Of a stretch of 45,845 nt of DNA, positions 4,170-39,756 are shown one piece after another. The stretch comes from a virus, in IMG/VR virus record IMGVR_UViG_3300028388_001884, positions 5,024-50,868 of that record; one strand, 5' to 3'. The position numbers and the translations under genes were made by a program. A model generated the notes under the pieces. The model was not told where the DNA came from. It searched no databases and saw only the letters and a program-made list of their open reading frames with translations. Within the stretch, counting starts at the first letter, position 1. The number at the start of each line of letters is the position of its first letter.

Positions 4170-5177
4170 ATGAGTTATGGTTACTCTTCTGATAATTTAG
4201 ATAGGAGAGGTTTCATAGATAAGAATAAAATTCTAAAATATGTTTCAGAAAAACAAATCTATGAATTAGTATTTGGATTTCAACCTGAAGAGTATCAGTA
4301 TGTTAGGTCTCCTTTAAGAGATGATAACTCACCTGGTGCTTGGTTTGAAACAACAGAATTTGGTCTTGTCTTTAGAGACTTCAATTATAAAAATAGACCT
4401 TTGGACTGCTTTGCTGTAGTACAGGACTATTTCAACTTACCTAATTTTTATGCTACTCTTAATTTTATTTATGAGAAGTTGATTGAAGGTAAAAGTCTCA
4501 ATGAGAGACACTTTACTCAAAAGAGTAACAAGAAAAAAGATGTTGAGATATTTTGTGAAAGTAGAAACTTTACTAAACAGGATAGAAGATTCTGGACTAA
4601 GTATGGTATCTCAAAGCAGAATTTGATTGATGATAAAGTATTTCCAATAAGGAAGTATCAGATGACCAATACAAAGTCAGGAGATATAAATGTAAAAGTG
4701 AGACAACTTTCTTATCTTTTTGGAGAGTTTGGAAAGAGAAAGAAATTATATTTTCCCAATGCTGAAAAGTCAAAGAGATTCCTTACTAATTGTACCAAAA
4801 ATGATATTGGTGCATTGGATACTTTATCACCTTATGGAAGACAATTATTACTAACAAAATCTTATAAAGATTGTAGAGTGATGAGAAATCAAGGAAAAAA
4901 TTCATGCTGGTTACAGAATGAAGGTATGTTTCCATCAATTGATTTACTATTATCTATAGTTAAAAGATTCTCTTATGTGATAGTCTTCTTTGATAATGAT
5001 GCACAAGGTATCAAAGCATCTCAACAATTAACTCAAATTATTAATAATCATTTTCCAGGAAAGGCTAGTCCTTTGTGGCTGCCAGAATCATTGAATCAGC
5101 AGGGTATTAGTGACCCTGCTGATTTATATGAAAAGAAAGGTAGAAATGAATTAAATCAATTCCTTAATAGATTATGA
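4170..5177 (+). CDS. DnaG-type primase
   Basis: 335 residues. The N-terminal region has SPLRDDNSPGAWF (47-59) and FRDFNY (69-74), the pattern of DnaG-family zinc-binding/CHC2-like domains, but without the zinc-ligand cysteines. The TOPRIM domain is clear: LLLTKSYKDCRVM (226-238) holds the conserved Lys, VIVFFDNDAQG (270-280) supplies the metal-binding Asp275 and Asp277, and DPADLYEKKG is the later KDPDD-like strand. It would make RNA primers for the fork together with the DnaB-like helicase. Its end overlaps the next gene by ATGA (5174-5177). Confidence 0.85.
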   Translation: MSYGYSSDNLDRRGFIDKNKILKYVSEKQIYELVFGFQPEEYQYVRSPLRDDNSPGAWFETTEFGLVFRDFNYKNRPLDCFAVVQDYFNLPNFYATLNFIYEKLIEGKSLNERHFTQKSNKKKDVEIFCESRNFTKQDRRFWTKYGISKQNLIDDKVFPIRKYQMTNTKSGDINVKVRQLSYLFGEFGKRKKLYFPNAEKSKRFLTNCTKNDIGALDTLSPYGRQLLLTKSYKDCRVMRNQGKNSCWLQNEGMFPSIDLLLSIVKRFSYVIVFFDNDAQGIKASQQLTQIINNHFPGKASPLWLPESLNQQGISDPADLYEKKGRNELNQFLNRL

Positions 5178-5905
5178 ATCCTAAAGAAATAATAGATGAG
5201 TCTTGGAATCCTATTTTACCAAAATTGAACCAAGAACCATTAACAACACTTAATAAGGATATATTACCTAATATATCTTATCAACCCAGACCTGAAAACA
5301 TCTTTAGAGTGTTTTCTATGCCTGTAAATCAGATAAAGGTGGTAATACTAGGGCAAGACCCATATCCTACACCAGGTGATGCTATAGGATACTCATTTGC
5401 TACCATACCTGAAAGAAAAATACCAGCAAGTCTAAGAATTATTGCTAAAGAAATTGAAAATGAAGGATTAAAAACAGGATTTTTTGATTCTGATATTCCT
5501 CATTGGAAAACTCTTGAGCATTGGACACATGAAGGTATATTTCTATTAAATACAGCATTGACTGTAGAGACTGCCAAAGCAGGTAGTCATTTAAAATATT
5601 GGTCAGATTGGACTAAAACTGTCATTCAATTTATATCTAGTCAGAACCCATGTATTTGGATACTCTGGGGAAAGAAAGCACAGAGCTTCATCCCAAACAT
5701 CTTAAACCCATTTCATGTTAAAGGTTATGATAAAGATACTATTGAAGATATACCATCTAATCCTGACTATAATTATATTCTGACTGCACCACACCCAGCA
5801 GCAGAATTATACTCTGGTGGAAACGCTGGATTTTATGGGTGTAATCATTTTATATTTGTTAACAAAATTCTTACTAAATTAGGTAAGGATACAATTATTT
5901 ATTAA
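5174..5905 (+). CDS. ung: Uracil-DNA glycosylase, family 1 (Ung)
   Basis: 243 residues, close to the usual length for the family. The water-activating loop GQDPYPTPG begins at residue 60 (catalytic Asp62), the uracil-recognition Asn lies in LLNTALT (Asn126), and the leucine-loop region has APHPAAELYSG with catalytic His207. The enzyme removes uracil from DNA. With the dUTPase (21,526), thymidylate synthase (17,214) and ribonucleotide reductase (18,760) it forms a set that keeps uracil out of phage DNA. It overlaps the primase gene by four bases, so the two are probably translated together. Confidence 0.95.
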   Translation: MNPKEIIDESWNPILPKLNQEPLTTLNKDILPNISYQPRPENIFRVFSMPVNQIKVVILGQDPYPTPGDAIGYSFATIPERKIPASLRIIAKEIENEGLKTGFFDSDIPHWKTLEHWTHEGIFLLNTALTVETAKAGSHLKYWSDWTKTVIQFISSQNPCIWILWGKKAQSFIPNILNPFHVKGYDKDTIEDIPSNPDYNYILTAPHPAAELYSGGNAGFYGCNHFIFVNKILTKLGKDTIIY

Positions 5906-5924: not shown

Positions 5925-6608
5925 ATGAGTACTCAAGCAATGAGAACTGTTACAGTTTTCTCAACAAAAGGAAGTAGAAGAGCAAAAATTGAAACTGATG
6001 TTACCACATGGGGTGAACTTAGGTCTTTGGTTGAAAAAGAAGGTTATGATGTAGATAAACTACATGCAACTGAGAACATTAGACGTACTGATTTAACACA
6101 CAAAGATGCTGTGTTACCTATGTCAGCTTTCACACTTTTTATGAGACCTAAGAAAACCAAGTCTGGTGGAAACTATGACAATATGGGTTTTACTCAGCTC
6201 AGAGGTGAATTAGATGATGAAGATAAATCCATCATTTCTGAGCAAACTGGTAAAAATTGGACTCAATGTTCAACAGAGGATTTGAGGAATTATTTAAATT
6301 CTAAGACTCCAGGTACTTCAAGTCCTGAACAAGTGGTTGAACAAGAAGTAATTGGAGAAGAAGTAGTTGAAGTATCAGAAGAAACATCTGAGAGAATCAA
6401 TGAAATTAATTCTCTTTTAGATAATATTAGTCAAAAAGTCAATGAACAGATTTCTGAAGTAAAGGAAAAAATCAATAACTTGGCTAATATTGAAGATTTA
6501 GTTGAAAAAGCTAAATTACAAGCAGAAGCTGAGATATTAGAAAAAGCTGAACAAGAAGAAATTGAAAGATTACTTCATGAAGCTGATGATTTAATGTCTG
6601 GATTCTAA
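5925..6608 (+). CDS. Ubiquitin-like beta-grasp protein with internal Gly-Gly and coiled-coil tail
   Basis: 227 residues. Residues 6-82 have the size and pattern of a beta-grasp ubiquitin-like domain: two N-terminal strands (RTVTVFSTKGSRRAKIET), a helix (TTWGELRSLVEKEG), then strands ending FTLFMRPKKTKSGG, with Ser80-Gly81-Gly82 where ubiquitin-type proteins end. After the Gly-Gly come about 145 further residues: an acidic linker rich in Val and Glu and a long coiled coil (about 150-220). A JAB protease such as the one at 7840 could cut after Gly82 to expose the C-terminus. The gene has an AT-only leader, is followed by a strong terminator (6634-6664), and precedes E2-, JAB- and E1-like genes. 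It resembles prokaryotic Prok_Ub/PRTRC-C proteins (recalled, not searched). Confidence 0.7.
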   Translation: MSTQAMRTVTVFSTKGSRRAKIETDVTTWGELRSLVEKEGYDVDKLHATENIRRTDLTHKDAVLPMSAFTLFMRPKKTKSGGNYDNMGFTQLRGELDDEDKSIISEQTGKNWTQCSTEDLRNYLNSKTPGTSSPEQVVEQEVIGEEVVEVSEETSERINEINSLLDNISQKVNEQISEVKEKINNLANIEDLVEKAKLQAEAEILEKAEQEEIERLLHEADDLMSGF

Positions 6609-6633
6609 GAAAACTTTAAATTATTTTACTTAT

Positions 6634-6664
6634 AAAGTGTGCAGTATATCTGCACACTTTTTTT
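6634..6664 (+). terminator. Intrinsic terminator between the ubiquitin-like gene and its enzymes
   Basis: AAAGTGTGCAG and CTGCACACTTT form a perfect 11-bp stem around the loop TATAT, followed at once by a run of T (6658-6664). It lies 25 bases after the ubiquitin-like stop codon. It would end most transcripts there, letting some read through into the enzyme genes, so modifier would be made in excess over its enzymes (inference). A possible start codon at 6639 lies inside this hairpin and is not credible. Confidence 0.85.
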
Positions 6665-6677
6665 AAATCGTTTTACT

Positions 6678-7928
6678 ATGAGAAAAATCAATATGAACCA
6701 TGTAGAAACTCATTCTTTTTCTACATACAGAGGTCAATATATCAAAAATCTTAGGAGATTAGGTATGACAAAGAAGAAATCATGGATTGAAAGAATGGTT
6801 AAATCTGGTTATATAGGTGTTAATAAAGATACTGTTGCTAGTTCTACTTCTGAGTTATATTGGAAATCTGATTGGGAACAGGCATATTTAAAACAAATAT
6901 TTGCTATTATAGATACTCTTGAAGTTGCTCATCCTGGAAATTGGGATATGCATATTCAAGAACATCTTAATAAATATCGTAATGAATCTAATGAAAAAAG
7001 GTATCTTTATTCATTACATCCTATAATTAGATACCCTAAATTTATTATAAGTAATAGTGATGGTGAAGAAGCAGAAATTAGAGATTTGATAGTAGCTTTA
7101 CCATTAGCTAAAAACCCTGATTTCTTAGATTTTACTTTTGAAATTAATATTATAATGGGTACTAGATATAATTTTTGTTATGAACATTATACATCTCGTT
7201 ATCTTCATAGTCATTTAGTTTCATCAAGTTATCCTGCTGGAGATATACTTAGTTTTTGTCTAGGTGAAGATGATTTACAAGATATAATAATGGAAATCTC
7301 AGGTAACGGTTTTGATGAAAATATGTTTGGTCTTTTTATATCTATGTTAGATAATATGGTTAAATGGGAATCTTTAGAAGGTGTTCCATATAATTATATT
7401 GCAGAAATAGTTACTAAAAATGAAGACAATAGAATCTCACCAACTAGTAGTGAAATTAGTGTTTTATATAGAAATACTTTTAGACCTTGGCTTCAATCTG
7501 AATCAGAACTTCCTGTAAACTTTGTTTATAATAAAGGTAGGTATCAGATTAAAAAAGATGATGATTACAATCAGTTTGTTAAAAAATTTATCATGACTTA
7601 TGAAAGATTGATATATTTATATTTGTGTAAAGAGAAAGATGGTTATTACTATTCCCCTAAACAATCATCACAAAATGATATACCTGATTTATTAGAATCA
7701 TTACAAAATTATTATGAATATTCAGAACCCCCATTTACCTATATATCAGGTAAAAAAATAAAAACTCAGATTCGCAGAACAAAATTTGACGAAACTGAAG
7801 ATATTAACACATTTAATGTACACCCAAAATTATTAGATTATGTCGCAACTCAACTCGAAAGAGAACTTTACGAAAAAGCAGTTATCAGTAGTGCAGTTGA
7901 AGCAAGAGCTGAAATTAGTAATGCCTGA
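6678..7928 (+). CDS. E2-like (UBC-fold) protein of the ubiquitin-like cluster
   Basis: 416 residues from the ATG at 6678, chosen because the upstream in-frame ATG at 6639 lies in the terminator hairpin. Residues about 115-200 fit a prokaryotic E2 fold: RYPKFIISNSDGE, then strands LIVALPL and FTFEINIIM, then RYLHSHLVSS (His177, His179) and GDILSFCLGEDDL with Cys194. An HxH shortly before a CLG cysteine is the pattern of bacterial E2-like proteins, in which the Cys carries the ubiquitin-like thioester. The remaining 200 residues are not recognised. The gene follows a ubiquitin-like gene and precedes JAB and E1 genes, which supports the reading. The fold assignment is inferred from motif and context. 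Confidence 0.55.
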   Translation: MRKINMNHVETHSFSTYRGQYIKNLRRLGMTKKKSWIERMVKSGYIGVNKDTVASSTSELYWKSDWEQAYLKQIFAIIDTLEVAHPGNWDMHIQEHLNKYRNESNEKRYLYSLHPIIRYPKFIISNSDGEEAEIRDLIVALPLAKNPDFLDFTFEINIIMGTRYNFCYEHYTSRYLHSHLVSSSYPAGDILSFCLGEDDLQDIIMEISGNGFDENMFGLFISMLDNMVKWESLEGVPYNYIAEIVTKNEDNRISPTSSEISVLYRNTFRPWLQSESELPVNFVYNKGRYQIKKDDDYNQFVKKFIMTYERLIYLYLCKEKDGYYYSPKQSSQNDIPDLLESLQNYYEYSEPPFTYISGKKIKTQIRRTKFDETEDINTFNVHPKLLDYVATQLERELYEKAVISSAVEARAEISNA

Positions 7929-9060
7929 AGAGGTATTGAACAAGATTAAATATTTGTGTAGTAAAATCTATGCAGATGAATGGTCTGGAATATTGTTTTA
8001 TTCCATTGAAGGTACTATTAAAGAACCTTCAAAAATGAAAATTACATTGGAAGATATTCTTCCTATGGATAAAGGTAGTAAAGCCTATACATCTTATGAT
8101 ATTGATGAAAGGTATGTCAATTATCTTATGGATGATGAAAAAAGAATGGATTGGCACATGGGTCATATTCATTCTCATAATACCATGCCTGTATTCTTTT
8201 CAGGTACAGATATGGAAGAACTCAATGATAATTCTCAATCACATAATGTGTACTTATCATTGATAGTCAATAACTTTATGGAGTTTTGTGCTAAAGCAGC
8301 TTTTGTTGCTGAAGCTACAGCAGAAGTAAAAGAAATTCCATATATGGCTAAAGATGAAGAAGGTAATGATTATGTTATCGAAACATCTAAATTCAATATC
8401 AAGAAAGAGAAAATGTTTGTTTATGACTGTAATGTTATTTCAGAGCAGGAAGAAATACTTATTGATAAAGATTTTGCTGAGAAAGTAGAAGATATATGTA
8501 AACCAAAAGTTACTCATACAAGAGTTAAAACATATAATGGTAGTCAATGGAAACATAAAACCAACTTTGATGCTCTTGGTAATCAGAACAATAAACATAA
8601 AGGTGTAGTTAGTAAGAGAATGTCAGATAGAAAAATTGACAATTCAGCTTATCATCAGTTCATGAAGGACTATCAAGATGAAATAGTTAATGATTATCCT
8701 GTTCATCCTAATGTTGAAGAAGACCATACTGATATTGAAATCTTTGCTATGATGCTTCTTAATTTTACTAACCATCTTAGTTCTGATGATACTATAGATA
8801 GTCTTATTAGTGATATAGAAGAGTTAGAAATTGATGAAAATCAGTTAGCATTAACTATATTGGAACATTTACCTGCTTTATTTGAGCAACAATTTCCTAA
8901 TTATGATGAAAATGGACAAATGTTCATTTCTGTTGTAGAACAGGTTGTTGAACTTTTTGAAGAAAATGTTACAATTTATCCAATTTTAAACCAGACTATA
9001 GACCTTTTAAAATCTACAGTCACAAAATTTGAAGATTATGCAGCAAGAACAACAGTTTAA
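7840..9060 (+). CDS. JAB/JAMM metalloprotease (deubiquitinase-like)
   Basis: 406 residues. The JAMM zinc-protease motif is complete: Glu47 in ADEWSGILFY, and GHIHSHNTMPVFFSGTD supplying His111, His113, Ser121 and Asp124 (H-x-H-x7-S-x2-D). This family removes or matures ubiquitin-like proteins by cutting after their Gly-Gly. The start at 7840 overlaps the E2-like gene by 89 bases; an ATG at 7921 would overlap by 8, but the residues before it (LKLV) look like the first strand of the JAB fold, so 7840 is preferred. The C-terminal half (about 230-406) is acidic and unrecognised. The natural substrate is probably the precursor encoded at 5925. Confidence 0.85.
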   Translation: MSQLNSKENFTKKQLSVVQLKQELKLVMPEEVLNKIKYLCSKIYADEWSGILFYSIEGTIKEPSKMKITLEDILPMDKGSKAYTSYDIDERYVNYLMDDEKRMDWHMGHIHSHNTMPVFFSGTDMEELNDNSQSHNVYLSLIVNNFMEFCAKAAFVAEATAEVKEIPYMAKDEEGNDYVIETSKFNIKKEKMFVYDCNVISEQEEILIDKDFAEKVEDICKPKVTHTRVKTYNGSQWKHKTNFDALGNQNNKHKGVVSKRMSDRKIDNSAYHQFMKDYQDEIVNDYPVHPNVEEDHTDIEIFAMMLLNFTNHLSSDDTIDSLISDIEELEIDENQLALTILEHLPALFEQQFPNYDENGQMFISVVEQVVELFEENVTIYPILNQTIDLLKSTVTKFEDYAARTTV

Positions 9061-9721
9061 TAGATTTAAAGATGCTCCTTGGTTTCCTGAAACTGATGAG
9101 CTTTGTCTTGTTGGTGGTGCAGGTGGTATAGGTTCATGGTTATCTTTCTTTTTAGTAAGAGCTGGTTTTAAACCTATTGTGTATGATTTTGATATTATTG
9201 AAGCACACAATTTAGGTGGTCAGTTATTTAGAAAGTCAGATGTAAATATTGCTAAAGTAGTTGCATTACATGACATCATTAAAACTTTTTGTGGTGAAGA
9301 AATATCTACTTTTAATGAAAAGATAGATGAAAATTCACCTACACATCATTTCTGTTTCTCAGCTTTTGATAATATGAAAGCTAGAAAAGATTTGTTTGAA
9401 GTTTGGAAAAAATCTATACCTGGATGTCCTGTACAACCTGTCTTTATTGATGGTAGGTTAACTATGGAACAGTTACAGATTTTTTGTGTGACTCCTGATA
9501 GGATTGTTGAATACGAAAATGAACACTTATTTGATGATTCTGAAATTGAAGATGCTCCTTGTACTATGAGACAAACATCACATACAGCAGCAATGATTGC
9601 TAGTAAGATGGTGTCAATGTTTACAAATCATATTACAAATATTTATGAAAGACAAGTGGTAAGAGATGTACCATTTTTCTATGAACATTTTGTACCAGTT
9701 AATTTAACAATAATAGAATAG
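9038..9721 (+). CDS. E1/ThiF-like ubiquitin-like-protein activating enzyme
   Basis: 227 residues from ATG 9038 (a TTG at 9029 is the alternative). The nucleotide-binding loop LVGGAGGIGSWL (residues 24-35) opens a Rossmann fold; VYDFDIIEAHNLGGQLF (48-64) has the acidic pair (Asp50, Asp52) and the Asn58 typical of E1/MoeB/ThiF adenylating enzymes, followed by Lys73. FIDGRL and APCTMRQTSHTAAMIASKMVS (Cys175) match the region where E1-like enzymes place the crossover helix and catalytic Cys. No CxxC zinc pairs are present, unlike MoeB. It would adenylate the Gly-Gly terminus of the 5925 product and pass it to the E2-like Cys. It overlaps the JAB gene by 23 bases. Confidence 0.85.
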   Translation: MQQEQQFNRFKDAPWFPETDELCLVGGAGGIGSWLSFFLVRAGFKPIVYDFDIIEAHNLGGQLFRKSDVNIAKVVALHDIIKTFCGEEISTFNEKIDENSPTHHFCFSAFDNMKARKDLFEVWKKSIPGCPVQPVFIDGRLTMEQLQIFCVTPDRIVEYENEHLFDDSEIEDAPCTMRQTSHTAAMIASKMVSMFTNHITNIYERQVVRDVPFFYEHFVPVNLTIIE

Positions 9722-9723
9722 TT

Positions 9724-11109
9724 ATGAATATAGATTTATCCAATTATGGCAATTTTACTAGAGATGAATATGCTATAGGAACTACATCTAAAAATTCTTA
9801 CTATCCGCTTTATTCTTTACTTGATAATAACAGAATTGGAAGAAACCAATTTATGTACTATAAACCTAGTATAGTAACATTATCAGCTATAAGTAGGTAT
9901 AATGAATTGTTTGAAACTCTTAGGTCAAAAATGTATTTTTCTAGGTTCAATTTTATAAGTAACGATGAAAATCATTTTATACTTGTAATGAAAGGTTATA
10001 TTGCCAATCATTTACAACAACCTTTGCTTATGATTGGCATTAATACTTTTGAACATGGTTTGAGTATATATGATAGTGATGAAAAATCAGAAGAAACAAA
10101 AGCTAAATTGAAAGTTTTTGTAGCAACTGAATTATTGACTAATGATATATATACTAATATATGGAGAAAGATTGATAGAGATTTCATACAATTATGTTAT
10201 GAAGATGGAATTGCTGTAGAATTTTGTACTATAGAAACAATTGAAAAGACTTTCTTTTCAAATGAATTTGTTGTTGAGTATAATAATCTTACAGAATTGA
10301 ACAATCATCTTAAAAATGATGTAGCAGATTTATTATTTAGAAGATTTCCTACTTATACTTATGATGATACATTAGATTTAAATTCAGAAGTAGTTACAGC
10401 AGAGTCTATTGTTTATACAGAAGGAAATAACAGAGAAGCATCTCTTATTCCTACTGATATGGTAGTTGATTTTGTGAAAAGGTATTATGAAATACATGGT
10501 TCTTTACCAGAAAGATGTTATTTCAGAAATAATGGTAATGTTATATTTACTTTTGAAAGTGGTATCAATCATATGTTTGCACCAGATGATATTAGATGTT
10601 TTGTACAGGAAGCAACTCCATATCATGTACCTAATCCTACAAGTTTAGATAATGAAACTGTAACAAGGTATGTTCCTGATGTACCTTCTCGTTTACAAGT
10701 AGATACAAATGCATTGGAAAGTTCAATTGTTGATATAATTTGTTCTGATATACCTATTACTGAAGAGGAGATTAGAGCTATTGTATTTCATTATCAAGGA
10801 GTTAGGTCTGATGGTGTAAGAATGGTATATACTAATGATGATGAAAATCTTCATATACTTTATGGTGATTATACTTCAGTTACATTTACTGAAGAGCAAT
10901 ATGAAGCACTTTTACGTGAAGAATTAGGTTTCAGAAATGAATCAGTTTCAGTAGCTGCTTCAGAATCAGATGTTGAAGATGAAGAAATTCGTGTGCTTGA
11001 TGATGAATTTGTTTTAGTAGATGATACTGATGAAGATGCAGAAGCAAGTGATGAAGAAGTTTTAGATGAAAATGAACCACAACAAGATGTAGAAGATATA
11101 TCTTGGTAA
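9724..11109 (+). CDS. Large unknown protein linked to the ubiquitin-like cluster
   Basis: 461 residues, not recognised. It follows the E1-like gene by two bases and so is probably co-transcribed with it. The N-terminal 200 residues are mixed alpha/beta (FILVMKGYIANHL, PLLMIGINTFEHGLSIYDSD). The last 70 residues are extremely acidic (Asp/Glu-rich, with SDVEDEEIRVLDDEFVLVDD), a likely disordered or charge-mimic tail. Cysteines are few and no catalytic triad is visible. It could be a target adaptor, scaffold or substrate of the conjugation system (inference from position only). Confidence 0.5.
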   Translation: MNIDLSNYGNFTRDEYAIGTTSKNSYYPLYSLLDNNRIGRNQFMYYKPSIVTLSAISRYNELFETLRSKMYFSRFNFISNDENHFILVMKGYIANHLQQPLLMIGINTFEHGLSIYDSDEKSEETKAKLKVFVATELLTNDIYTNIWRKIDRDFIQLCYEDGIAVEFCTIETIEKTFFSNEFVVEYNNLTELNNHLKNDVADLLFRRFPTYTYDDTLDLNSEVVTAESIVYTEGNNREASLIPTDMVVDFVKRYYEIHGSLPERCYFRNNGNVIFTFESGINHMFAPDDIRCFVQEATPYHVPNPTSLDNETVTRYVPDVPSRLQVDTNALESSIVDIICSDIPITEEEIRAIVFHYQGVRSDGVRMVYTNDDENLHILYGDYTSVTFTEEQYEALLREELGFRNESVSVAASESDVEDEEIRVLDDEFVLVDDTDEDAEASDEEVLDENEPQQDVEDISW

Positions 11110-31176: not shown

Positions 31177-34100
31177 TTAACATCTTTTTATATTATCTGG
31201 TAATAATGATACATCTGGTGTTCCAGTATCAGTATCAGGGTCTCCAAGTTCAGTAAATCCTGCATCAGGGTCTGAGAAATCATCATTCATTTGGTCTAAA
31301 GGTGGACCAAATATATCATCTTGTTTGATAACATGTTTAAACTCTTCCATTTCTTTTATACCTACTTCTTGTTTGATTTTCTTTTTATTTAGAACTTCAA
31401 CAGTAGCAAGTGATGTACCTAATATTTGTTCAGCTAAATTGTTTTCAACACCTGAGAACTTATTCAATAAAGCATCAAGTACTTTTTTGAATTTAGCAAA
31501 AATATCTATACCTGTTTTCTTATATGGTATAGCAGATGTTTCTTGTATGAATAATTGGTTGTTACCTAATGATACAGATAAGAACTCTTTAACATTCATA
31601 GCTGGATAAAGTACTTCTATTTCAAAGTCACTAAAACCTTGTGGCTGTTGAGTTTCTACAAATTTATTATATTTTTCAACAAATGAAGCATATTCAGTAG
31701 CATATTTTTTCTGAATCTTATTTCTATATTCATTGAACAATATATTTAATTGTACAACTTCTTTAGGTGCATTTTCAGTTAAGAGATTACCTTGAGTATC
31801 CATGTAAGGTTTTAATTCTCTAGTAGTTACACTATGAATAAATTCATGTAAAAATGTTTCAGCCATTTTAGGTTTCTTAGGATTGATAAATATTGTATTA
31901 GTATTATCACTTCTTCTAATATTAGCACCTCTTCCTGCCATTTCAGTATCAATAACTACATTAACATCTAACATTTTATCACCAAATATTTCAAATAATG
32001 TATTTGCTATTTCACTTAGTGATGGGTTATAAGTAAACTTATTATTCTTAATTCTTTCAAGAATATCTTTTACATTATCACCTGTAGAAATACTGAATAC
32101 TTTATTATCATTTTGTTGTCCTGGTATATTAGCAAGTGATTGTTGCAGACTTGGTGTAGATTCAACAGGTTCAGGTTTTTTGATAATAGTATTCATATTA
32201 CTACTGTCATAGTCATATTCAGCCATACCAAATTCACCTAATACATCAATCTCTTTATACTGATTACCATTCACTACTTTATATAATGACCATTTAGATT
32301 GTTTAAGTTTCTCTTTAGTTTTGTTCTTGATAGACACATACTTAGGATATTCATCCATTTTTTCATTAATCCATAATTTACCATCTTTAACAGTTCTCTT
32401 AAAGTCTTTAGGTAATTGAGTAGCAAATTCTGGATTGTTCTGGAAGAACTGCTCTGTAAAATTCTTTAATCTATCTCTACTAGACCAATTAGATACTAGG
32501 GTATCATAATTCTGTAAAGCTCTTGTTACATTATTAGCTCTAGGATGGTCTAAACTATCATAATATTCAATAGGTATAAATCTATGGAACTCAATAGCTT
32601 CTCTTACAATACCACCTGATAAATGAGAATAAGCAACTAATTCCTGTGCTAACATTCTTGTAGTATATGGTTGTCCATTTCTATCTGGTAATGGTATATC
32701 TTGTATTAATAATTCTTTAAAAGCTGAGTGAAAATGTTCTTCACTTACATTAGCAATCTCAGTATTATCAAACTTAATAAGACTAGGTTTACCATTTTCA
32801 CCTTTTTCATAAGATAAGTATGATAACAAGTTATTATTCTTAACTGTGTTAATACCTTTAGTGTCATCTTGTGAGTTAAGAATATTAGCTAAGTATGTAC
32901 TTAAAGAATCATTCTCTTCAGTATCCATAAACAAAGCACTCCTTTCTTCTGATGGTGTATCTAAAAATAAGTTATTTCTACTAGCAGCAGTTATAAACTT
33001 TTTCATTTCTTGGAAAATAGTTTCTTTGAGTTTTACTTCATTACCACTATATCCTGAAAGTTCTATAATATCATTAACTTTTCTATTTATGTAACTATCA
33101 TAATAAGGGAAGTATTTAAAGAATAGATTTCTACCTAATGATAAAGCAGTACCAATCATAGCTCCTTGATTTGTAGTAGGAGTAAAATATAACCCACCTA
33201 AATCAAGTTCACCTTGTTTTTCATCAAACTCACCAAGTAATTCAGTAGCATTAGCAAAATCATTATTTTGAGTAATATTCATGAATTTTTCAATGTTATC
33301 TTGTAACTCCCACATAGATTTACCAAGGTTAGACATATCAATTACATCTTGTAATTCCTTCATCTTTTTAGCATCTTGAATAAGTCTTCTGTATAACATC
33401 AATACTTCTTTCTGAAAATCACTTTCTATATTATTAGCTTTGATTTCATCAACTAAGTTTTTACCAGTAAAGTTTTCAGAATAACCTTCTTGTCTATCAT
33501 AAGTATGTATTAGGTCATCCATAATTTCTTCTTCAACTTGCTTACTAACAAATCCATTAAGTATTGCTTTTTCATTCTTTAATCTTGTAAAGTATTCTTT
33601 TATAATAGGTTGAGAATGTAATAAGTATGGAAGAGAATATTCTTCATAGTAAACTTGCTCACCATCTATGATAGCAGTTCTATGGAAAGGATTATTTTCA
33701 TCATAGTTATTTTTGTTGATTTGATTAACTTCAGCATCAATACCAAGTAATGATAATAAGTTATCTACAGCAACAGCATCTATATGTGTAATACCTACTC
33801 TACCTAAAATTTGTGCTTTTTCATTATCAGTTGCAGTATTTACTCTTTCATCTTGAACTTCAGCAGTATTTCTAACTAATTGAGATTCAATACTATTAGC
33901 ATTAGATTTAGCAATAGTTTGTCTTAATCCTAAAGTACCATTACTTACTACATTACCAATTCTAATATCAGCAGCAACCATTTCACCCATTTCATTTTCT
34001 TCTAATAATTGAATAGGTCTATTAGATTGTTGTGCTATAGAATTAAACGTTACACCTTTAGCATAGATACCAATTGCTAATGAACCTGTAGAACCAGAAA

Positions 34101-37100
34101 TCATTTTATTCATCTGGTATGTAGGTGATAAGATATTGAATGCACTCTTATCATTGTTAGTATTCATTGTATCAATTGCATCAGCTTGTTTCTCAGCAAA
34201 CTCCATAGATAATACTTTGTTTATCTTAGTTTGCACTTCAGCACTTTGATTACTGTAAACAGAGTTATGAATTTCAATGAAATCATTTTGTGCTAATTTA
34301 AGGTCAAATGCTCTTTCTAATGAAGCAATCTTAGCAGCATCAGTATCAAGTTTAAGAGCTAAGTCTAACTCTTCTTGACCAAATATAGCCACTAATAAAT
34401 CATCAGCCATTATTTCATTGATACCACCTGCACCTTGTTTAAGGTCTCTATTCAAGAATCTATTTTTCATTCTTTGAATAGCGTTCTCTTTATGAGATTC
34501 ATTCAGTTTTTCAATTCTACCATTATTATTGATATGATGATATTGATATGCAGTTAATTTATCAATATCAAAATCCTGACCCATTTGAGTAACAAAGTTC
34601 TTAGGTGTTATAAGTAAGTCACCCATTACAGCAGGAATAAAACCTACTATTTTAATGTTACTACCAGAACCATGAGATGATGTTGGTGTTCTAAATGTAA
34701 AGTTTTCTAATAGTTGAGGGTCAATAACTTCTTCATTAATTCTAAATCCTTTATTGTCTTCAGCAGGTAACAAATAGATTAACTTACCATCCTTATCTTT
34801 TTCAAATAAGTCTATTAATTTACCATCTATTTTAATCTTAGAAGGTGCTAATACTTCAGTACCTTTAAGTTCTCCACCTTCATAATCACCAATATAAACT
34901 ACATCATTTATAACTCTTTCACCTTGAGTTTCAAGTTGTAAACCAGCTTCTGAACCAACTACGAAACCATTTCCAGGTAGCTTTTGTTTGAATATCTTGT
35001 TGTTAATGATAGCATTAAGCATAGATTCAAACTTGTTAGAGTTACCTGAAAACCATAATGGTAATTTAAAATGATATACATCTTTACCATTAATATTCTT
35101 CTTTTGTATCTCAAGAGCTTTAATATCATTTTCTGGGAATCCTCTTTCTTCAGCTTCAGCAACTAATAATTCTTGAAGTTTCTCAGCAGCATATTCAGGA
35201 TTATCAGTAGTATAGTCATCTTCTAATCCTAAACTATCTAATAACTTATCTTTCTGAATATTGACCATAGATGAGAATGTCTCAAAGAATCTCTGTTGTA
35301 ATTCTCTACCATTTAAAGTCTCACCTTTAAATTCAAATCCATTGATGTCTGTCATACCATCACCAAAAAGAAGTTTGAATATTTGAGTACCCATAGATAC
35401 TTTATCTTCAGCTTGATAATCAGATTTGAAAGGAACATCTTGTTGTATCTTAAAATCAATTCTATTAAGTTCTACAGCATTAGCAGGTCTTCCTGTTTTA
35501 GTATCAAGAACATCAAGTTCTTCTAAAGACTCAGCATCAAAAGGATTGATAGCATTCTTCATAGCACCAACCTTGTTAGCTGATTGATATGAAGCTCTTA
35601 CATGTACACCTTGTTCTTTTTCTATATTCATCATCTTATTCATCAAAGGTTCTAATTTAGTACCTTTAACTAAGTCTGGAACTAATGGAAATGAAGATGA
35701 TTTCACATACATGATTCTTCTTACTCCTTGTTCTTTATCTATGATGTCTCCTGTATGAACTGGTTTAAGTGGTTGTAAAACTAAATCTAAATCTTCTTTT
35801 TCTAAAGACTCTCCTTTTTCAACCTTATCATTTATTGCATCAACCTGGCTTTGACTGATTCTACCCATACCATGTAGTACTCTTAAATGCTCTGCAACAG
35901 TTGTATATTCTTGAGCATCAGTAGTTTCAATCTGTAAGAAATCTGCAACTTTAGCAAATTTTAATTTAAGTTGGTTCAAATTTGCATCAGAAATGTTCTT
36001 ATTTCTAAGGTCATTAATATGTTCTTGATATGTTTTATCATTAAATTCTTCTTTAAGAACATCTTTACCATAATGCCAACCAATTATCTCTTCAACATTT
36101 TGTGCAACTTCTTCTTGGTCTTCTAAAAATAATTGTAAATAAGTTTCATCTTGAGCATCATTTAATACTACACCTGGTGCAATCATTAATGCCATTCTCT
36201 TACCTAAGTTTATACCTAAGTCTCTTGACATTTTAATTTGTTCATTAGCATCAATTGATGTAGGTTCACCTTTTGATTTGTAATACATAGCAGGGTCTCC
36301 TGCAATAAGTTGTAAAGTATTCATATTACCAATCATAGAGTTGATTACATAATCTAACTCTGCAACAAATGCTCTTTCTTCAGCAATTTCACCTTCTACT
36401 TTTCTAGTTTTAAGATATTCGTTGTTATTAAACTTATCAGTTTTACCACCATCTTCCATATATGGTATCATGGCATCATGATTAGTATTAGCTTCTTTGT
36501 AAATAGAGTCTTCTAAAAAACCTGTAATTTTATCAAAGAACTTTGCTTTAAATGCTTCTTCACTTTTATTATTTGATAAGAACTCAAGAACAGTTTCATT
36601 ACCAGAAACCATAGTATTGATTTCAGGTATTAAATTAAATCTAACTGCACCTTTATCATAATCTTTGATATTAGTATCTTGATGTTTTATGATTCTTTTG
36701 AGTTCAGGAACTATTAAAGATTCATATAATAATTCTTTTACTTCAGAAGAAAATACATACTTACCTTCTTCATTTTTTTGAAAAGCTGTAGGATTAGAAT
36801 ACAAATCATAAACAGCAGTTTTAAGCAACATCATTCTACCTTTATCAGAATTTGTAGGTGTACTTAAATGTCCTACTCTCATATCAAATCCATGTTTATC
36901 TACTTTAAAATTTTCTACTCTTTGATATTGGAACATAGTTCTTTGATGGAACATGTAATCTACTGGTGATAACTGGTCCACTTTAGAGAACATAGGATTT
37001 TTATTATACATTCTCTTCATAGCCATAAGACCTACTTCACCATACTCAAATATATCAGCAAAGTCAGGATTGTTCTGTAATAAATCTAATAGTACAGAGT

Positions 37101-39756
37101 TAGAAGAAAAATCTAATTCTGCAAGGTCTTCTAAGTATGATTTATCACCTTGAGCAGATTGTATTAACTTCTTAACATTATTGAAAAAGAAAGTAGGGAA
37201 TATAATTTCACTAACTGTCTTATCTCCATCTCTTCTTGTAATATTCATTAGAGATGTATTATGTCCAGCTTCTATAGGGATTAATGCTTTAAGAATATCA
37301 TTCATATCATGGTGTGGATGTAATGTCTTATTGTTTACATAATCCAATGTATTCTGTTTAGCATCTTTATGTACTCTAGCATAATTAGCTAGGTTAGAGA
37401 ACAGTCTATCTAGTCTATTACCTGTATCAAAAAATAAATCTTCAAAAGATAAGTTTCTAGCTTTTCTTCCTTTTCCTGTAACAAACTTACCATCTTTAAG
37501 TTCTTTCCATGTACCATCAGATAAAAAGATACCAAAATCATATAACCATTCTCTTAGTACTTCATCAGGTTGTTCATGCTTATTATCTCCCCATGATTCC
37601 CATTGAGCATATAATTTAGATAATTTCTCTGTGTTGATAGTATTTCCATTGGTAAGATTACTTCTTCTCAGATTGTTATTCCAGGATTCTTTTATTTTTT
37701 GTTGAATGTTATTAGCATTACTGAACCATAAAGAAGATTCCATACCATCACCTTGTTCTGTAAACATTACAAACTTAGCTTTAGCAGCATATTTGTACAT
37801 GTTAGATACAAATGATGCTTTGGTATCATCATCAGCTTTTTTCAATTCTGTAATAAGTGTTTGCATCCAGGGATAAGTTTCATTGAATAACTCTAACCTT
37901 TCTACCATTGCATCAAAGTTAGGATTAGCAGGTAATGGAGAAATGAGTATTGTAGCAACTGTGTTGTACATTGTATCATATCCCTCATGTTTATCTATTC
38001 CTAAGAAACCTTTACTACCATTAGTAATAGTAGAAAATAATCTTCTGAGTTTTTTACTTACTTTATCTTTATGAATAACTTCATTAGAAGATTTAGAATG
38101 GTCTTTCACATACATTTCTTTTTGAGAGTGTTCCATAAGTTCATCTCTAAGTTCATCAGTAGTCTTAATTGAAGATGGAATGAATCCATTTCTCATACCT
38201 TCCATATAAGCCTTTTCAAAAAACTTAGGATAGTTCTTAGTTACCTTATCTACTTTAGCAATGTTTTTCTGTAAAACATTCATTACTGGTTGCAGTCTCT
38301 CATTTTTCTGACTATCTTGTTCATATAGTTTGTTGAGATTATCATATTGCTTTTCCAGTTTAGCTTTAAGATTTCCAAATCTCATTCTAAAAGTGTTGGC
38401 AATAGTATCATTAAATTCACCTACTGTCATCTCTTTAGAGTTATCATAGTTCTGAGAGATAAGAGATAGAACATAATTTACTACTGTACTTTGTTGGTCT
38501 AAAGTTAAACCTGGAATAAGATTAAGACTTTTCTTTAAACTATTGGTATCTTCAAGTGTAGGTAATAAATAATCAATATCATCTTCTAAACCTTCAAATC
38601 CATTGATACTCTCTAATAATTCTCTTGCTTCTGCAATAGCTTCAGCAGCATCTGGTGATTCAGTAACTTCTTGATTTTCTGTTACTTCTGTAAATGTAGT
38701 TTCTTCAACTTCTATTTCTTCAGCTTCTACTTTGATGATAGGTTGTACAGAATGTGTATAAGCTGGATTCTCTTCAGTACCCATATTATAACCCATAACA
38801 TTAGTAGTTAACCTTTCTCTTAAAAAGTCTTCATAAGTATCTGCAACTTTCTTAACTTCAAAAGTATTACCTTTTTGTTTTACAGATACACCTGCACTCT
38901 TACTTGCTAACAAGTTTGTATTCTGAACAGCAGTATAATCTCCAAAGAATAATGCATCAATAAAGTATCCTGTCTTACCATTAGGTAATGGAATATTTTT
39001 AGAGTTAGCTGTATATTTTTTGTTACCTTTTTGTAATGCAATTAAAGAATTTACTAAATTGATAGTGTTATCAAAGTTTCTGATGTCAATACCAGTTTGT
39101 TGTCTTATTTGATTTCTGATATTTTCAGCTTGTTCTATAGATAAATTGTAACCTGGTTTATTTCTATTAAGTACAGAGTTAGCAGCCATTATCCATTTAG
39201 CTGTTTGAATATCTTCAGTCATAGCTTTGTTCTCACCTTTCTCATTTTTTCTAAGAACATTGATAGCTACATATCTTGTTTTCTTATCTGTCTTGTTTAT
39301 AGGAGATAAATAGAATGTAGAATTGGTAATACCTTTTTGTCTTTTGATTTCATCAAGATTTGTAATCTCAACATTATCTAAACTAAGAGGTACACCATCT
39401 AAATCTACAAAGTAATCACCTTTAAAGAATACTATAGGATTATCCTTAGCTACTTCAGATAATTTTTTTGATGGTATAGGATTACCATCTTTGTCTTTTG
39501 TAGGAACTTTAATAAAAGGACTACCATTTTTTGAAGTGATAGTGACTTGTTTCACTCTACCTTCAGAGATAGCCTTTCTCATATTCATAGCATTATCCTT
39601 ACCTTCTTGGATAGCTCTTTGATGATGGTCAGTAGGATTATCTATAAATACTACATCACCTGTTTCTTTAGATGTATCTCTTACTGTCATTGGAGAATAC
39701 CAATCTACATCAGGAATAAAAGCTACATTAGAACCTTGTGCATCTTGATACACCAT
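31177..39756 (-). CDS. Virion RNA polymerase of the crAss-like type (giant, with metalloprotease-like motif)
   Basis: 2,859 residues. TQMGQDFDIDKLTAY holds the metal-binding catalytic DFDID (Asp1728, Asp1730, Asp1732; bases 34,561-34,575), the signature of the crAss-like virion RNA polymerase described for phage phi14:2 gp66, a single-chain enzyme with both double-psi barrels related to eukaryotic RNA-silencing polymerases. It is packaged and transcribes early genes after injection. It is longer than the 2,180 residues I recall for gp66. Near the C-terminus MAETFLHEFIHSVTT (His2637-Glu-x-x-His2641) is a zincin-type HExxH. The start lies 11 bases after the previous stop; the frame before the ATG (DFIAKVP) also looks protein-like, so a fusion with the upstream gene is possible. 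Confidence 0.85.
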   Translation of the reverse strand: MVYQDAQGSNVAFIPDVDWYSPMTVRDTSKETGDVVFIDNPTDHHQRAIQEGKDNAMNMRKAISEGRVKQVTITSKNGSPFIKVPTKDKDGNPIPSKKLSEVAKDNPIVFFKGDYFVDLDGVPLSLDNVEITNLDEIKRQKGITNSTFYLSPINKTDKKTRYVAINVLRKNEKGENKAMTEDIQTAKWIMAANSVLNRNKPGYNLSIEQAENIRNQIRQQTGIDIRNFDNTINLVNSLIALQKGNKKYTANSKNIPLPNGKTGYFIDALFFGDYTAVQNTNLLASKSAGVSVKQKGNTFEVKKVADTYEDFLRERLTTNVMGYNMGTEENPAYTHSVQPIIKVEAEEIEVEETTFTEVTENQEVTESPDAAEAIAEARELLESINGFEGLEDDIDYLLPTLEDTNSLKKSLNLIPGLTLDQQSTVVNYVLSLISQNYDNSKEMTVGEFNDTIANTFRMRFGNLKAKLEKQYDNLNKLYEQDSQKNERLQPVMNVLQKNIAKVDKVTKNYPKFFEKAYMEGMRNGFIPSSIKTTDELRDELMEHSQKEMYVKDHSKSSNEVIHKDKVSKKLRRLFSTITNGSKGFLGIDKHEGYDTMYNTVATILISPLPANPNFDAMVERLELFNETYPWMQTLITELKKADDDTKASFVSNMYKYAAKAKFVMFTEQGDGMESSLWFSNANNIQQKIKESWNNNLRRSNLTNGNTINTEKLSKLYAQWESWGDNKHEQPDEVLREWLYDFGIFLSDGTWKELKDGKFVTGKGRKARNLSFEDLFFDTGNRLDRLFSNLANYARVHKDAKQNTLDYVNNKTLHPHHDMNDILKALIPIEAGHNTSLMNITRRDGDKTVSEIIFPTFFFNNVKKLIQSAQGDKSYLEDLAELDFSSNSVLLDLLQNNPDFADIFEYGEVGLMAMKRMYNKNPMFSKVDQLSPVDYMFHQRTMFQYQRVENFKVDKHGFDMRVGHLSTPTNSDKGRMMLLKTAVYDLYSNPTAFQKNEEGKYVFSSEVKELLYESLIVPELKRIIKHQDTNIKDYDKGAVRFNLIPEINTMVSGNETVLEFLSNNKSEEAFKAKFFDKITGFLEDSIYKEANTNHDAMIPYMEDGGKTDKFNNNEYLKTRKVEGEIAEERAFVAELDYVINSMIGNMNTLQLIAGDPAMYYKSKGEPTSIDANEQIKMSRDLGINLGKRMALMIAPGVVLNDAQDETYLQLFLEDQEEVAQNVEEIIGWHYGKDVLKEEFNDKTYQEHINDLRNKNISDANLNQLKLKFAKVADFLQIETTDAQEYTTVAEHLRVLHGMGRISQSQVDAINDKVEKGESLEKEDLDLVLQPLKPVHTGDIIDKEQGVRRIMYVKSSSFPLVPDLVKGTKLEPLMNKMMNIEKEQGVHVRASYQSANKVGAMKNAINPFDAESLEELDVLDTKTGRPANAVELNRIDFKIQQDVPFKSDYQAEDKVSMGTQIFKLLFGDGMTDINGFEFKGETLNGRELQQRFFETFSSMVNIQKDKLLDSLGLEDDYTTDNPEYAAEKLQELLVAEAEERGFPENDIKALEIQKKNINGKDVYHFKLPLWFSGNSNKFESMLNAIINNKIFKQKLPGNGFVVGSEAGLQLETQGERVINDVVYIGDYEGGELKGTEVLAPSKIKIDGKLIDLFEKDKDGKLIYLLPAEDNKGFRINEEVIDPQLLENFTFRTPTSSHGSGSNIKIVGFIPAVMGDLLITPKNFVTQMGQDFDIDKLTAYQYHHINNNGRIEKLNESHKENAIQRMKNRFLNRDLKQGAGGINEIMADDLLVAIFGQEELDLALKLDTDAAKIASLERAFDLKLAQNDFIEIHNSVYSNQSAEVQTKINKVLSMEFAEKQADAIDTMNTNNDKSAFNILSPTYQMNKMISGSTGSLAIGIYAKGVTFNSIAQQSNRPIQLLEENEMGEMVAADIRIGNVVSNGTLGLRQTIAKSNANSIESQLVRNTAEVQDERVNTATDNEKAQILGRVGITHIDAVAVDNLLSLLGIDAEVNQINKNNYDENNPFHRTAIIDGEQVYYEEYSLPYLLHSQPIIKEYFTRLKNEKAILNGFVSKQVEEEIMDDLIHTYDRQEGYSENFTGKNLVDEIKANNIESDFQKEVLMLYRRLIQDAKKMKELQDVIDMSNLGKSMWELQDNIEKFMNITQNNDFANATELLGEFDEKQGELDLGGLYFTPTTNQGAMIGTALSLGRNLFFKYFPYYDSYINRKVNDIIELSGYSGNEVKLKETIFQEMKKFITAASRNNLFLDTPSEERSALFMDTEENDSLSTYLANILNSQDDTKGINTVKNNNLLSYLSYEKGENGKPSLIKFDNTEIANVSEEHFHSAFKELLIQDIPLPDRNGQPYTTRMLAQELVAYSHLSGGIVREAIEFHRFIPIEYYDSLDHPRANNVTRALQNYDTLVSNWSSRDRLKNFTEQFFQNNPEFATQLPKDFKRTVKDGKLWINEKMDEYPKYVSIKNKTKEKLKQSKWSLYKVVNGNQYKEIDVLGEFGMAEYDYDSSNMNTIIKKPEPVESTPSLQQSLANIPGQQNDNKVFSISTGDNVKDILERIKNNKFTYNPSLSEIANTLFEIFGDKMLDVNVVIDTEMAGRGANIRRSDNTNTIFINPKKPKMAETFLHEFIHSVTTRELKPYMDTQGNLLTENAPKEVVQLNILFNEYRNKIQKKYATEYASFVEKYNKFVETQQPQGFSDFEIEVLYPAMNVKEFLSVSLGNNQLFIQETSAIPYKKTGIDIFAKFKKVLDALLNKFSGVENNLAEQILGTSLATVEVLNKKKIKQEVGIKEMEEFKHVIKQDDIFGPPLDQMNDDFSDPDAGFTELGDPDTDTGTPDVSLLPDNIKRC

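Follow-up and report, generated by a model that had tools for sequence, protein, structure and literature searches.

A predicted ubiquitin-like conjugation cassette in the replication neighborhood of crAss-like phages

The window analyzed here is a stretch of 45,845 nucleotides (positions 5,024 to 50,868 of IMG/VR virus record IMGVR_UViG_3300028388_001884) and covers most of a 50.9-kb virus record from a crAss-like phage, a relative of the commonest human gut viruses. It carries four consecutive genes, all on the plus strand, for a ubiquitin-like modifier (Ubl), an E2-like protein, a JAB/JAMM metalloprotease, and an E1/ThiF-like activating enzyme, and we consider it fairly probable that they form a self-contained, phage-encoded ubiquitin-like conjugation system that works as a cascade. 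An earlier note, made from the sequence alone, had described the four genes and their motifs; the open reading frames (ORFs) are present as described, and the motif residues are conserved in 76 to 80 distinct relatives. Absent from that note were the apparent precursor nature of the Ubl, its K-S-G motif, a hairpin behind the Ubl gene, a conserved fifth gene, and the spread of the cassette across Steigviridae and environmental phages. Bacterial ubiquitin-like operons are known from plasmids and from anti-phage defense, and a full, intact set in phages would reverse the roles: if the reading is correct, the virus itself would run a protein-tagging pathway.

Relatives were gathered with E1 as the query, which gave 78 phage records and 233 IMG/VR contigs, 80 of these contigs being kept. 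The order Ubl, E2-like, JAB, E1 was found in every locus with sufficient upstream contig, about 95 loci, and was lacking only in truncated contigs and in one jumbo phage with a distant E1 alone. The carriers were gut Steigviridae, Flavobacterium Fpv phages, and related environmental phages, and the cassette was also present in crAss001 (gp79-gp76), DAC15, cr106, cr128, cr111, cr85, cr126, frurule, bajarodcaudo, Dulem 41, and Fpv3. Every checked catalytic residue of all four proteins was intact in 74 of 75 distinct loci, and the sole failing locus had an E1 cut by the contig end; such conservation would not be expected of a decaying or non-enzymatic set, and the invariance pattern in the alignments is that of enzymes under strong constraint. 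In a quick tree, the phage E1s formed one clade, in which gut Steigviridae split from an environmental group with the Fpv phages and the window, and the E1s of the plasmid PRTRC system stood apart. Searches of p-crAssphage (Carjivirus), crAss002, three Suoliviridae, and Cellulophaga phi14:2 turned up no E1, indicating that the cassette is a lineage trait and is not universal in Crassvirales. In public records, crAss001 gp76 is annotated as thiamine biosynthesis ThiF, gp77 as a metalloprotease-domain protein, and gp78 and gp79 as hypothetical proteins, and an open-access literature search, with subscription journals outside its scope, returned no account of these genes as forming a ubiquitin-like system of crAss-like phages. 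The present analysis offers likely roles for four genes that, in abundant gut viruses, are labeled "hypothetical," "metalloprotease," and "thiamine biosynthesis." Three contigs in Clostridium and Spirochaetia bins of metagenome-assembled genomes (L027, L028, and L029) also had the cassette or its E1 and are likely phage contigs.

The Ubl gene (5925..6608, plus strand; phrog_15560) encodes a protein of 227 residues with an N-terminal beta-grasp, a three-helix domain, and a C-terminal coiled coil. Its AlphaFold2 (AF2) model, with a predicted local distance difference test score (pLDDT) of 86.5, showed the order beta-beta-alpha-beta-beta and then helices. A single beta-grasp domain was present, confidently modeled at residues 7-75, and was followed by a flexible end bearing KSG, three short helices, and the coiled coil. 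The best fold matches in the PDB were almost all to ubiquitin, ISG15, SUMO, or UBX, with probabilities as high as 1.00 and target-based TM-scores reaching 0.72. The tag is thus predicted to have a ubiquitin fold, in agreement with the beta-grasp proposed for this ORF. The further proposal that the domain ends in Ser-Gly-Gly had to be corrected. KSGG occupies residues 79-82 of the window protein, after the last predicted beta strand; across diverse Ubl sequences K79 and G81 were invariant (54/54) and the serine nearly so (50/54), residue 82 was free, and the Gly of KSG was conserved in all 76 distinct relatives. Because the K and G are invariant and the next residue is free, K-S-G (residues 79-81; 6159..6167) appears to be the true end of the modifier and the predicted point of JAB cleavage and conjugation. 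Behind it lies a tail of about 146 residues (6168..6605), predicted by AF2 to consist of a helical domain, an acidic linker, and a coiled coil with a DLMSGF end.

Natural variants of the Ubl gene bear on how this precursor may be processed. The gene stops 1-2 codons past the KSG Gly in five distinct loci, namely one codon beyond it in L066, L089, L093/L094, and L098, and also in cr106_1; the ends seen were KSGE, KSGI, KSGR, KAGA, and KSGKF, each followed by a stop codon. In cr106_1, an HNH endonuclease gene lies between the KSGKF end and a separate tail gene that keeps the terminal motif EISDMF. A second, small ORF, likely the tail, begins at an overlapping TAATG in L089 and L093, whereas L066 and L098 have no adjoining tail. 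These split and tail-less variants strongly suggest that tag and tail function as two polypeptides and that, where they are fused, the Ubl gene product is a precursor that JAB cuts behind KSG. A single conjugated Gly has a precedent in CBASS cGAS (PMC10097602), and JAB maturation of a Ubl has one in BilC/BilA (PMC11354881). Among the PRTRC C proteins, which have KG at their end, some likewise carry a tail. Fused, split, and tail-less precursors together provide a natural series for studying Ubl precursor maturation.

Two side observations concern the same genes. The HNH endonuclease gene that separates the Ubl domain from the tail lies in L018 (cr106_1) 1746-2949, and the JAB genes of Fpv1/2/20 are likewise interrupted and in two pieces, with an endonuclease annotated in some records; homing elements thus seem to have targeted the cassette repeatedly. 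In addition, a short acidic-hydrophobic motif, such as ADDLMSGF (window 6576-6605), SEIDDMFSFV, or SEINDLFGGWAK, closes the Ubl tails of the window, L015, L017, L019, and L021-L024. It resembles the C-terminal tails of single-stranded DNA-binding proteins and is possibly a docking peptide.

The JAB gene (7840..9060, plus strand) encodes a metalloprotease of 406 residues with a long C-terminal extension. The start is probably ATG 7840 rather than GTG 7918, because it adds 26 residues that can be aligned to the N-terminal ends of related proteins; with this start, the gene overlaps the E2-like gene by 89 nt, and an overlap is also present in relatives. The motif HSH-x7-S-xx-D at 8170-8211 is accompanied by an upstream catalytic Glu, and the residues E, H, H, S, and D were conserved in 79/79 relatives. 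Pfam Prok-JAB was matched by 22 of 23 family members (best 1.1e-6) and a PADLOC JAB profile at 8e-5, which supported the protease assignment. The C-terminal part of JAB is homologous (best E 2e-17) to a separate gene of about 180 codons downstream of the uracil-DNA glycosylase (UDG) gene, namely crAss001 gp73 and its counterparts (L015 8176-8736, with equivalents in L017, L018, and L020-L024), which likely reflects a domain duplication.

The E1 gene (9038..9721, plus strand) encodes 227 residues with a single ThiF domain, the motif GGAGGIGS, and the candidate catalytic Cys175 (9560-9562). The E1/ThiF-like assignment was upheld by Pfam ThiF (2.9e-15), by hhalign, and by many solved E1/ThiF/MccB chains (best 4.6e-13). 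The nucleotide-site residues were conserved in 78-80 of 80 relatives, and the catalytic Cys in 78/78 where covered. In gut Steigviridae and two environmental contigs, E1 has an N-terminal extension of up to about 190 residues (L015 5557-6000, L018 5506-6000, L012 5416-6000), which is absent in the window. An in-frame TAA at L088 6502-6504 splits E1 just before the catalytic Cys region, with the downstream frame well conserved, and could be readthrough, a genuine truncation, or an error of assembly. A distant E1 relative (L025 7932-8612) occurs in jumbo phages (about 228 kb) of Xanthomonas and Erwinia. It was rejected as a relative of the cassette, since no JAB, E2, or Ubl gene stands beside it in the Xanthomonas phage, where it adjoins a gene for a protein of about 890 residues and DNA topoisomerase genes.

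The E2-like gene (6678..7928, plus strand; phrog_15310) encodes 416 residues with the motifs H177-S178-H179 (7206-7214) and C194-L-G196, Cys194 (7257-7259) being the candidate catalytic residue. H179, C194, and G196 were invariant in 79/79 relatives despite a mean column identity of only 18% in the family. The AF2 model (pLDDT 84.8) placed a helix at 64-84, strands at 89-97, 109-125, 131-140, and 160-167, HSH at 177-179, Cys194, and helices at 199-209 and 214-228. This is the order of the ubiquitin-conjugating (UBC) fold: a helix, a four-strand meander, HxH, Cys after strand 4, and two helices. For this protein, a UBC fold is probable rather than established.

In 59 of 75 distinct loci, a terminator-like hairpin with a T-run separates the Ubl gene from the E2-like gene; in the window (6634..6666, plus strand, with the hairpin at 6634-6660), it resembles an intrinsic terminator with an 11-bp stem and a 5-nt loop. 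The same test gave 0/76 before Ubl, 1/76 after E2, 1/79 after JAB, 2/76 after E1, and 1/49 after the fifth gene. Since the hairpin sequences differ among distant loci, conservation applies to its position and not to its sequence. The genes for the enzymes overlap and are probably translationally coupled. A terminator-like hairpin after the tag gene predicts an excess of tag over enzymes, and the simplest reading is that more modifier than enzyme would be made, as expected of a tagging system. Promoter-like sites were no commoner than in shuffled sequences.

These features suggest the following pathway. JAB would cut the precursor after K-S-G and expose a single C-terminal Gly; E1 would adenylate this Gly and take the Ubl as a thioester on Cys175; the Ubl would then pass to Cys194 of the E2-like protein and on to protein amines; and the same JAB would remove the tag. 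The hairpin would keep the tag in excess of the coupled enzymes. The most likely outcome is reversible protein tagging during early infection. A fuller picture, which we offer tentatively as plausible rather than probable, is a viral pathway of the ubiquitin type that is complete from the modifier precursor through to the deconjugase and is inherited in one crAss-like branch within the replication module, with tag excess set by a position-conserved terminator, tail release by the phage JAB, and reversible tagging of replication or host proteins.

Among the closest known systems is PRTRC. Iyer et al. 2006 described an operon type 6d with Ubl, an alpha-helical protein, E2-like, JAB, and E1 (PMC1779556), and by our own identification the plasmid PRTRC system fits this type, its order being ParB-E-C(Ubl)-F-B(E2)-A(JAB)-ThiF(E1). 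The resemblance in gene order that the earlier note pointed out was supported, the phage order corresponding to C-(F)-B-A-ThiF. Both systems have a small Ubl with a conserved C-terminal Gly (KSG in phages, KG in PRTRC C), the phage E1 is homologous to PRTRC ThiF (hhalign 99%, 3e-19), and the phage JAB is homologous to PRTRC JAB (hhalign 76-83%, about 1e-5). However, the phages lack PRTRC F between Ubl and E2, and neither ParB nor PRTRC E was listed beside the cassette in any annotated relative. The window E1 scored 27.5 bits against TIGR03736 (cut-off 144.75; all 24 members matched, best E 8.2e-14), and the window JAB scored 12.3 bits against TIGR03735 (cut-off 101.8; 16 of 23 members matched, best E 8.8e-4). 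E2 family D (PF14460/TIGR03737) was not among the Pfam families shown for 57 members of the phage E2-like family, in which the His precedes the Cys, whereas PRTRC E2 has PxxN...C with a downstream His. PRTRC JAB has an N-terminal alpha+beta domain with conserved Arg and Trp (PMC1779556), which is missing in the phage JAB with only about 46 residues ahead of its catalytic Glu, and the phage E1s form a clade of their own. When hidden Markov models (HMMs) of the phage Ubl and E2-like proteins were compared with those of ten PRTRC C and B sequences, no match emerged, with or without trimming. The cassette would operate like these systems, and an origin shared with PRTRC is probable for E1 and JAB at least, but it is not itself a PRTRC member: its scores lie below the curated cut-offs, and several defining features are missing.

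Family identity with the defense systems Bil and CBASS was not supported, since the defining features of both are absent. Bil contains the same Ubl, E2, JAB, and E1 parts, and its JAB matures the Ubl, but BilA has two Ubl domains (PMC11354881) and the phage Ubl has one beta-grasp. BilB has a CEHH motif after the Cys, whereas the phage E2-like protein has its invariant His before the Cys and no conserved His after it, and BilD has an inactive and an active adenylation domain, whereas the phage E1 has one ThiF domain. Type II CBASS shares an adenylation domain, a JAB, and mono-Gly conjugation (PMC10097602), but Cap2 is an E2-E1 fusion acting on a cGAS-like enzyme, whereas the phage genes are separate and include a dedicated Ubl; no CD-NTase was found adjoining the phage cassette. 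PADLOC E1-E2 matches covered the adenylation domain only, and no E2 or Ubl family was found for the cassette proteins in Pfam, NCBIfam, or PADLOC. The lambdoid TAPI/TAPK pair, a phage Ubl with a C-terminal domain plus a JAB (PMC1779556), consists of tail genes without E1 or E2, whereas the cassette lies among replication genes.

Several points weigh against a working conjugation cascade, the E2-slot protein being the weak link. No E2 family was among the Pfam families shown for 57 E2-like members, a PDB profile search returned no E2s, and Foldseek with the full-length model against the PDB gave nothing significant (best E 0.026, to an unrelated protein). Neither did hhalign find a significant match to PRTRC B, trimming included. 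In the model, the Cys lies after strand 4 in the UBC order, and a significant UBC match was not obtained. Moreover, the best curated (NCBIfam) match of E1 is the ThiS-adenylating ThiF, a sulfur-carrier enzyme (best 1e-20). The missing Pfam, PDB, and HMM-HMM links would suit an E2-slot protein that is some other Cys-containing adaptor, with E1 transferring the Ubl directly to its targets. We regard this as unlikely, since the Cys-x-Gly and upstream His are invariant, the predicted elements follow the UBC order, and the gene occupies the same slot as PRTRC B. The Foldseek top 25 also included, without significance, 8ow1_OO (highest probability) and CENP-P 7pb8_P, which we take to be RWD proteins and hence UBC-fold relatives, together with the Vps23 ubiquitin E2 variant domain 3r42_A; this is suggestive only. 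Against BFVD, all Foldseek hits were proteins of crAss-like phages or proteins without a name. A small profile of PRTRC B, used as a control, placed E2s at the top of its PDB ranking, although at E 0.5, and the phage protein has accordingly diverged further than PRTRC B. Prok-E2_D was matched once among 299 genomes from one phylum, which was of no help.

The E1 match raises a second explanation, in which the C-terminal Gly freed by JAB is turned by E1 into a thiocarboxylate, as with ThiS/ThiF or CysO, and the Ubl donates sulfur toward a cofactor or toward the modification of tRNA or DNA. The thiamine biosynthesis annotation of phage E1s agrees with it, but the window E1 scored 52.7 bits against the ThiF equivalog NF006395, below the 159-bit cut-off, and a Cys protein with invariant H and C is always encoded between Ubl and JAB. 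Most sulfur carriers end in GG, and in the annotated relatives neither a rhodanese nor a cysteine desulfurase nor a sulfur-accepting synthase was noticed close to the cassette; we judge this explanation quite improbable. Host Bil systems tag phage tails, and by analogy the cassette might serve superinfection exclusion, putting the tag on structural proteins of competing phages and so protecting a persistently infected host cell. The shared set of parts with Bil (PMC11354881) and the stable coexistence of crAss-like phages with their hosts (PMC12118408) would fit. This role is nevertheless improbable, given the absence of Bil-specific features, the position of the genes among early replication genes, and the single-lineage inheritance of E1, which is less like a mobile defense module. 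JAB proteases process or remove Ubls in Bil- and CBASS-type systems, and the phage JAB, with a decoy Ubl or E2, might instead neutralize the conjugation carried out by Bil or type II CBASS in the host. Although JAB processing of a Ubl in Bil is documented (PMC11354881), the forward enzymes E1 and E2-like, needless for a decoy or protease, are intact in 74/75 loci, and counter-defense is very improbable. Because of these points, the counter-defense and sulfur-carrier explanations rank below a conjugation system.

With regard to gene location, the assignment to a crAss-like phage and a replication neighborhood was supported. The giant protein at 31177-39756 matched Flavobacterium Fpv phage proteins over nearly its entire length and Crassvirales RNA-polymerase subunits over part of it. 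Upstream of the cassette lie UDG, primase, and phrog_15339 genes, and on the other side are the conserved fifth gene and an exonuclease gene; replication and recombination neighbors in the window and annotated relatives comprised primase, UDG, Holliday-junction resolvase, and exonuclease. Primase, UDG, and exonuclease genes stay beside the cassette in both clades, and PRTRC lies beside partition genes; phage or host DNA replication and recombination proteins are therefore our best guess at the targets, though we hold this with considerable doubt. Since cultured phages (crAss001, DAC15, and Flavobacterium Fpv phages) carry the cassette, mass spectrometry offers a direct route to its substrates. 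The fifth gene (9724..11109, plus strand; gp75-like, phrog_15446) follows E1 in the window clade and in Steigviridae; it showed no relation to PRTRC F or PRTRC E, and its versions in the two clades are homologous (hhalign 95%, 2e-8). UDG lies on opposite sides of the cassette in the two clades (window 5174-5905 versus L015 7510-8175), which reflects a local rearrangement.

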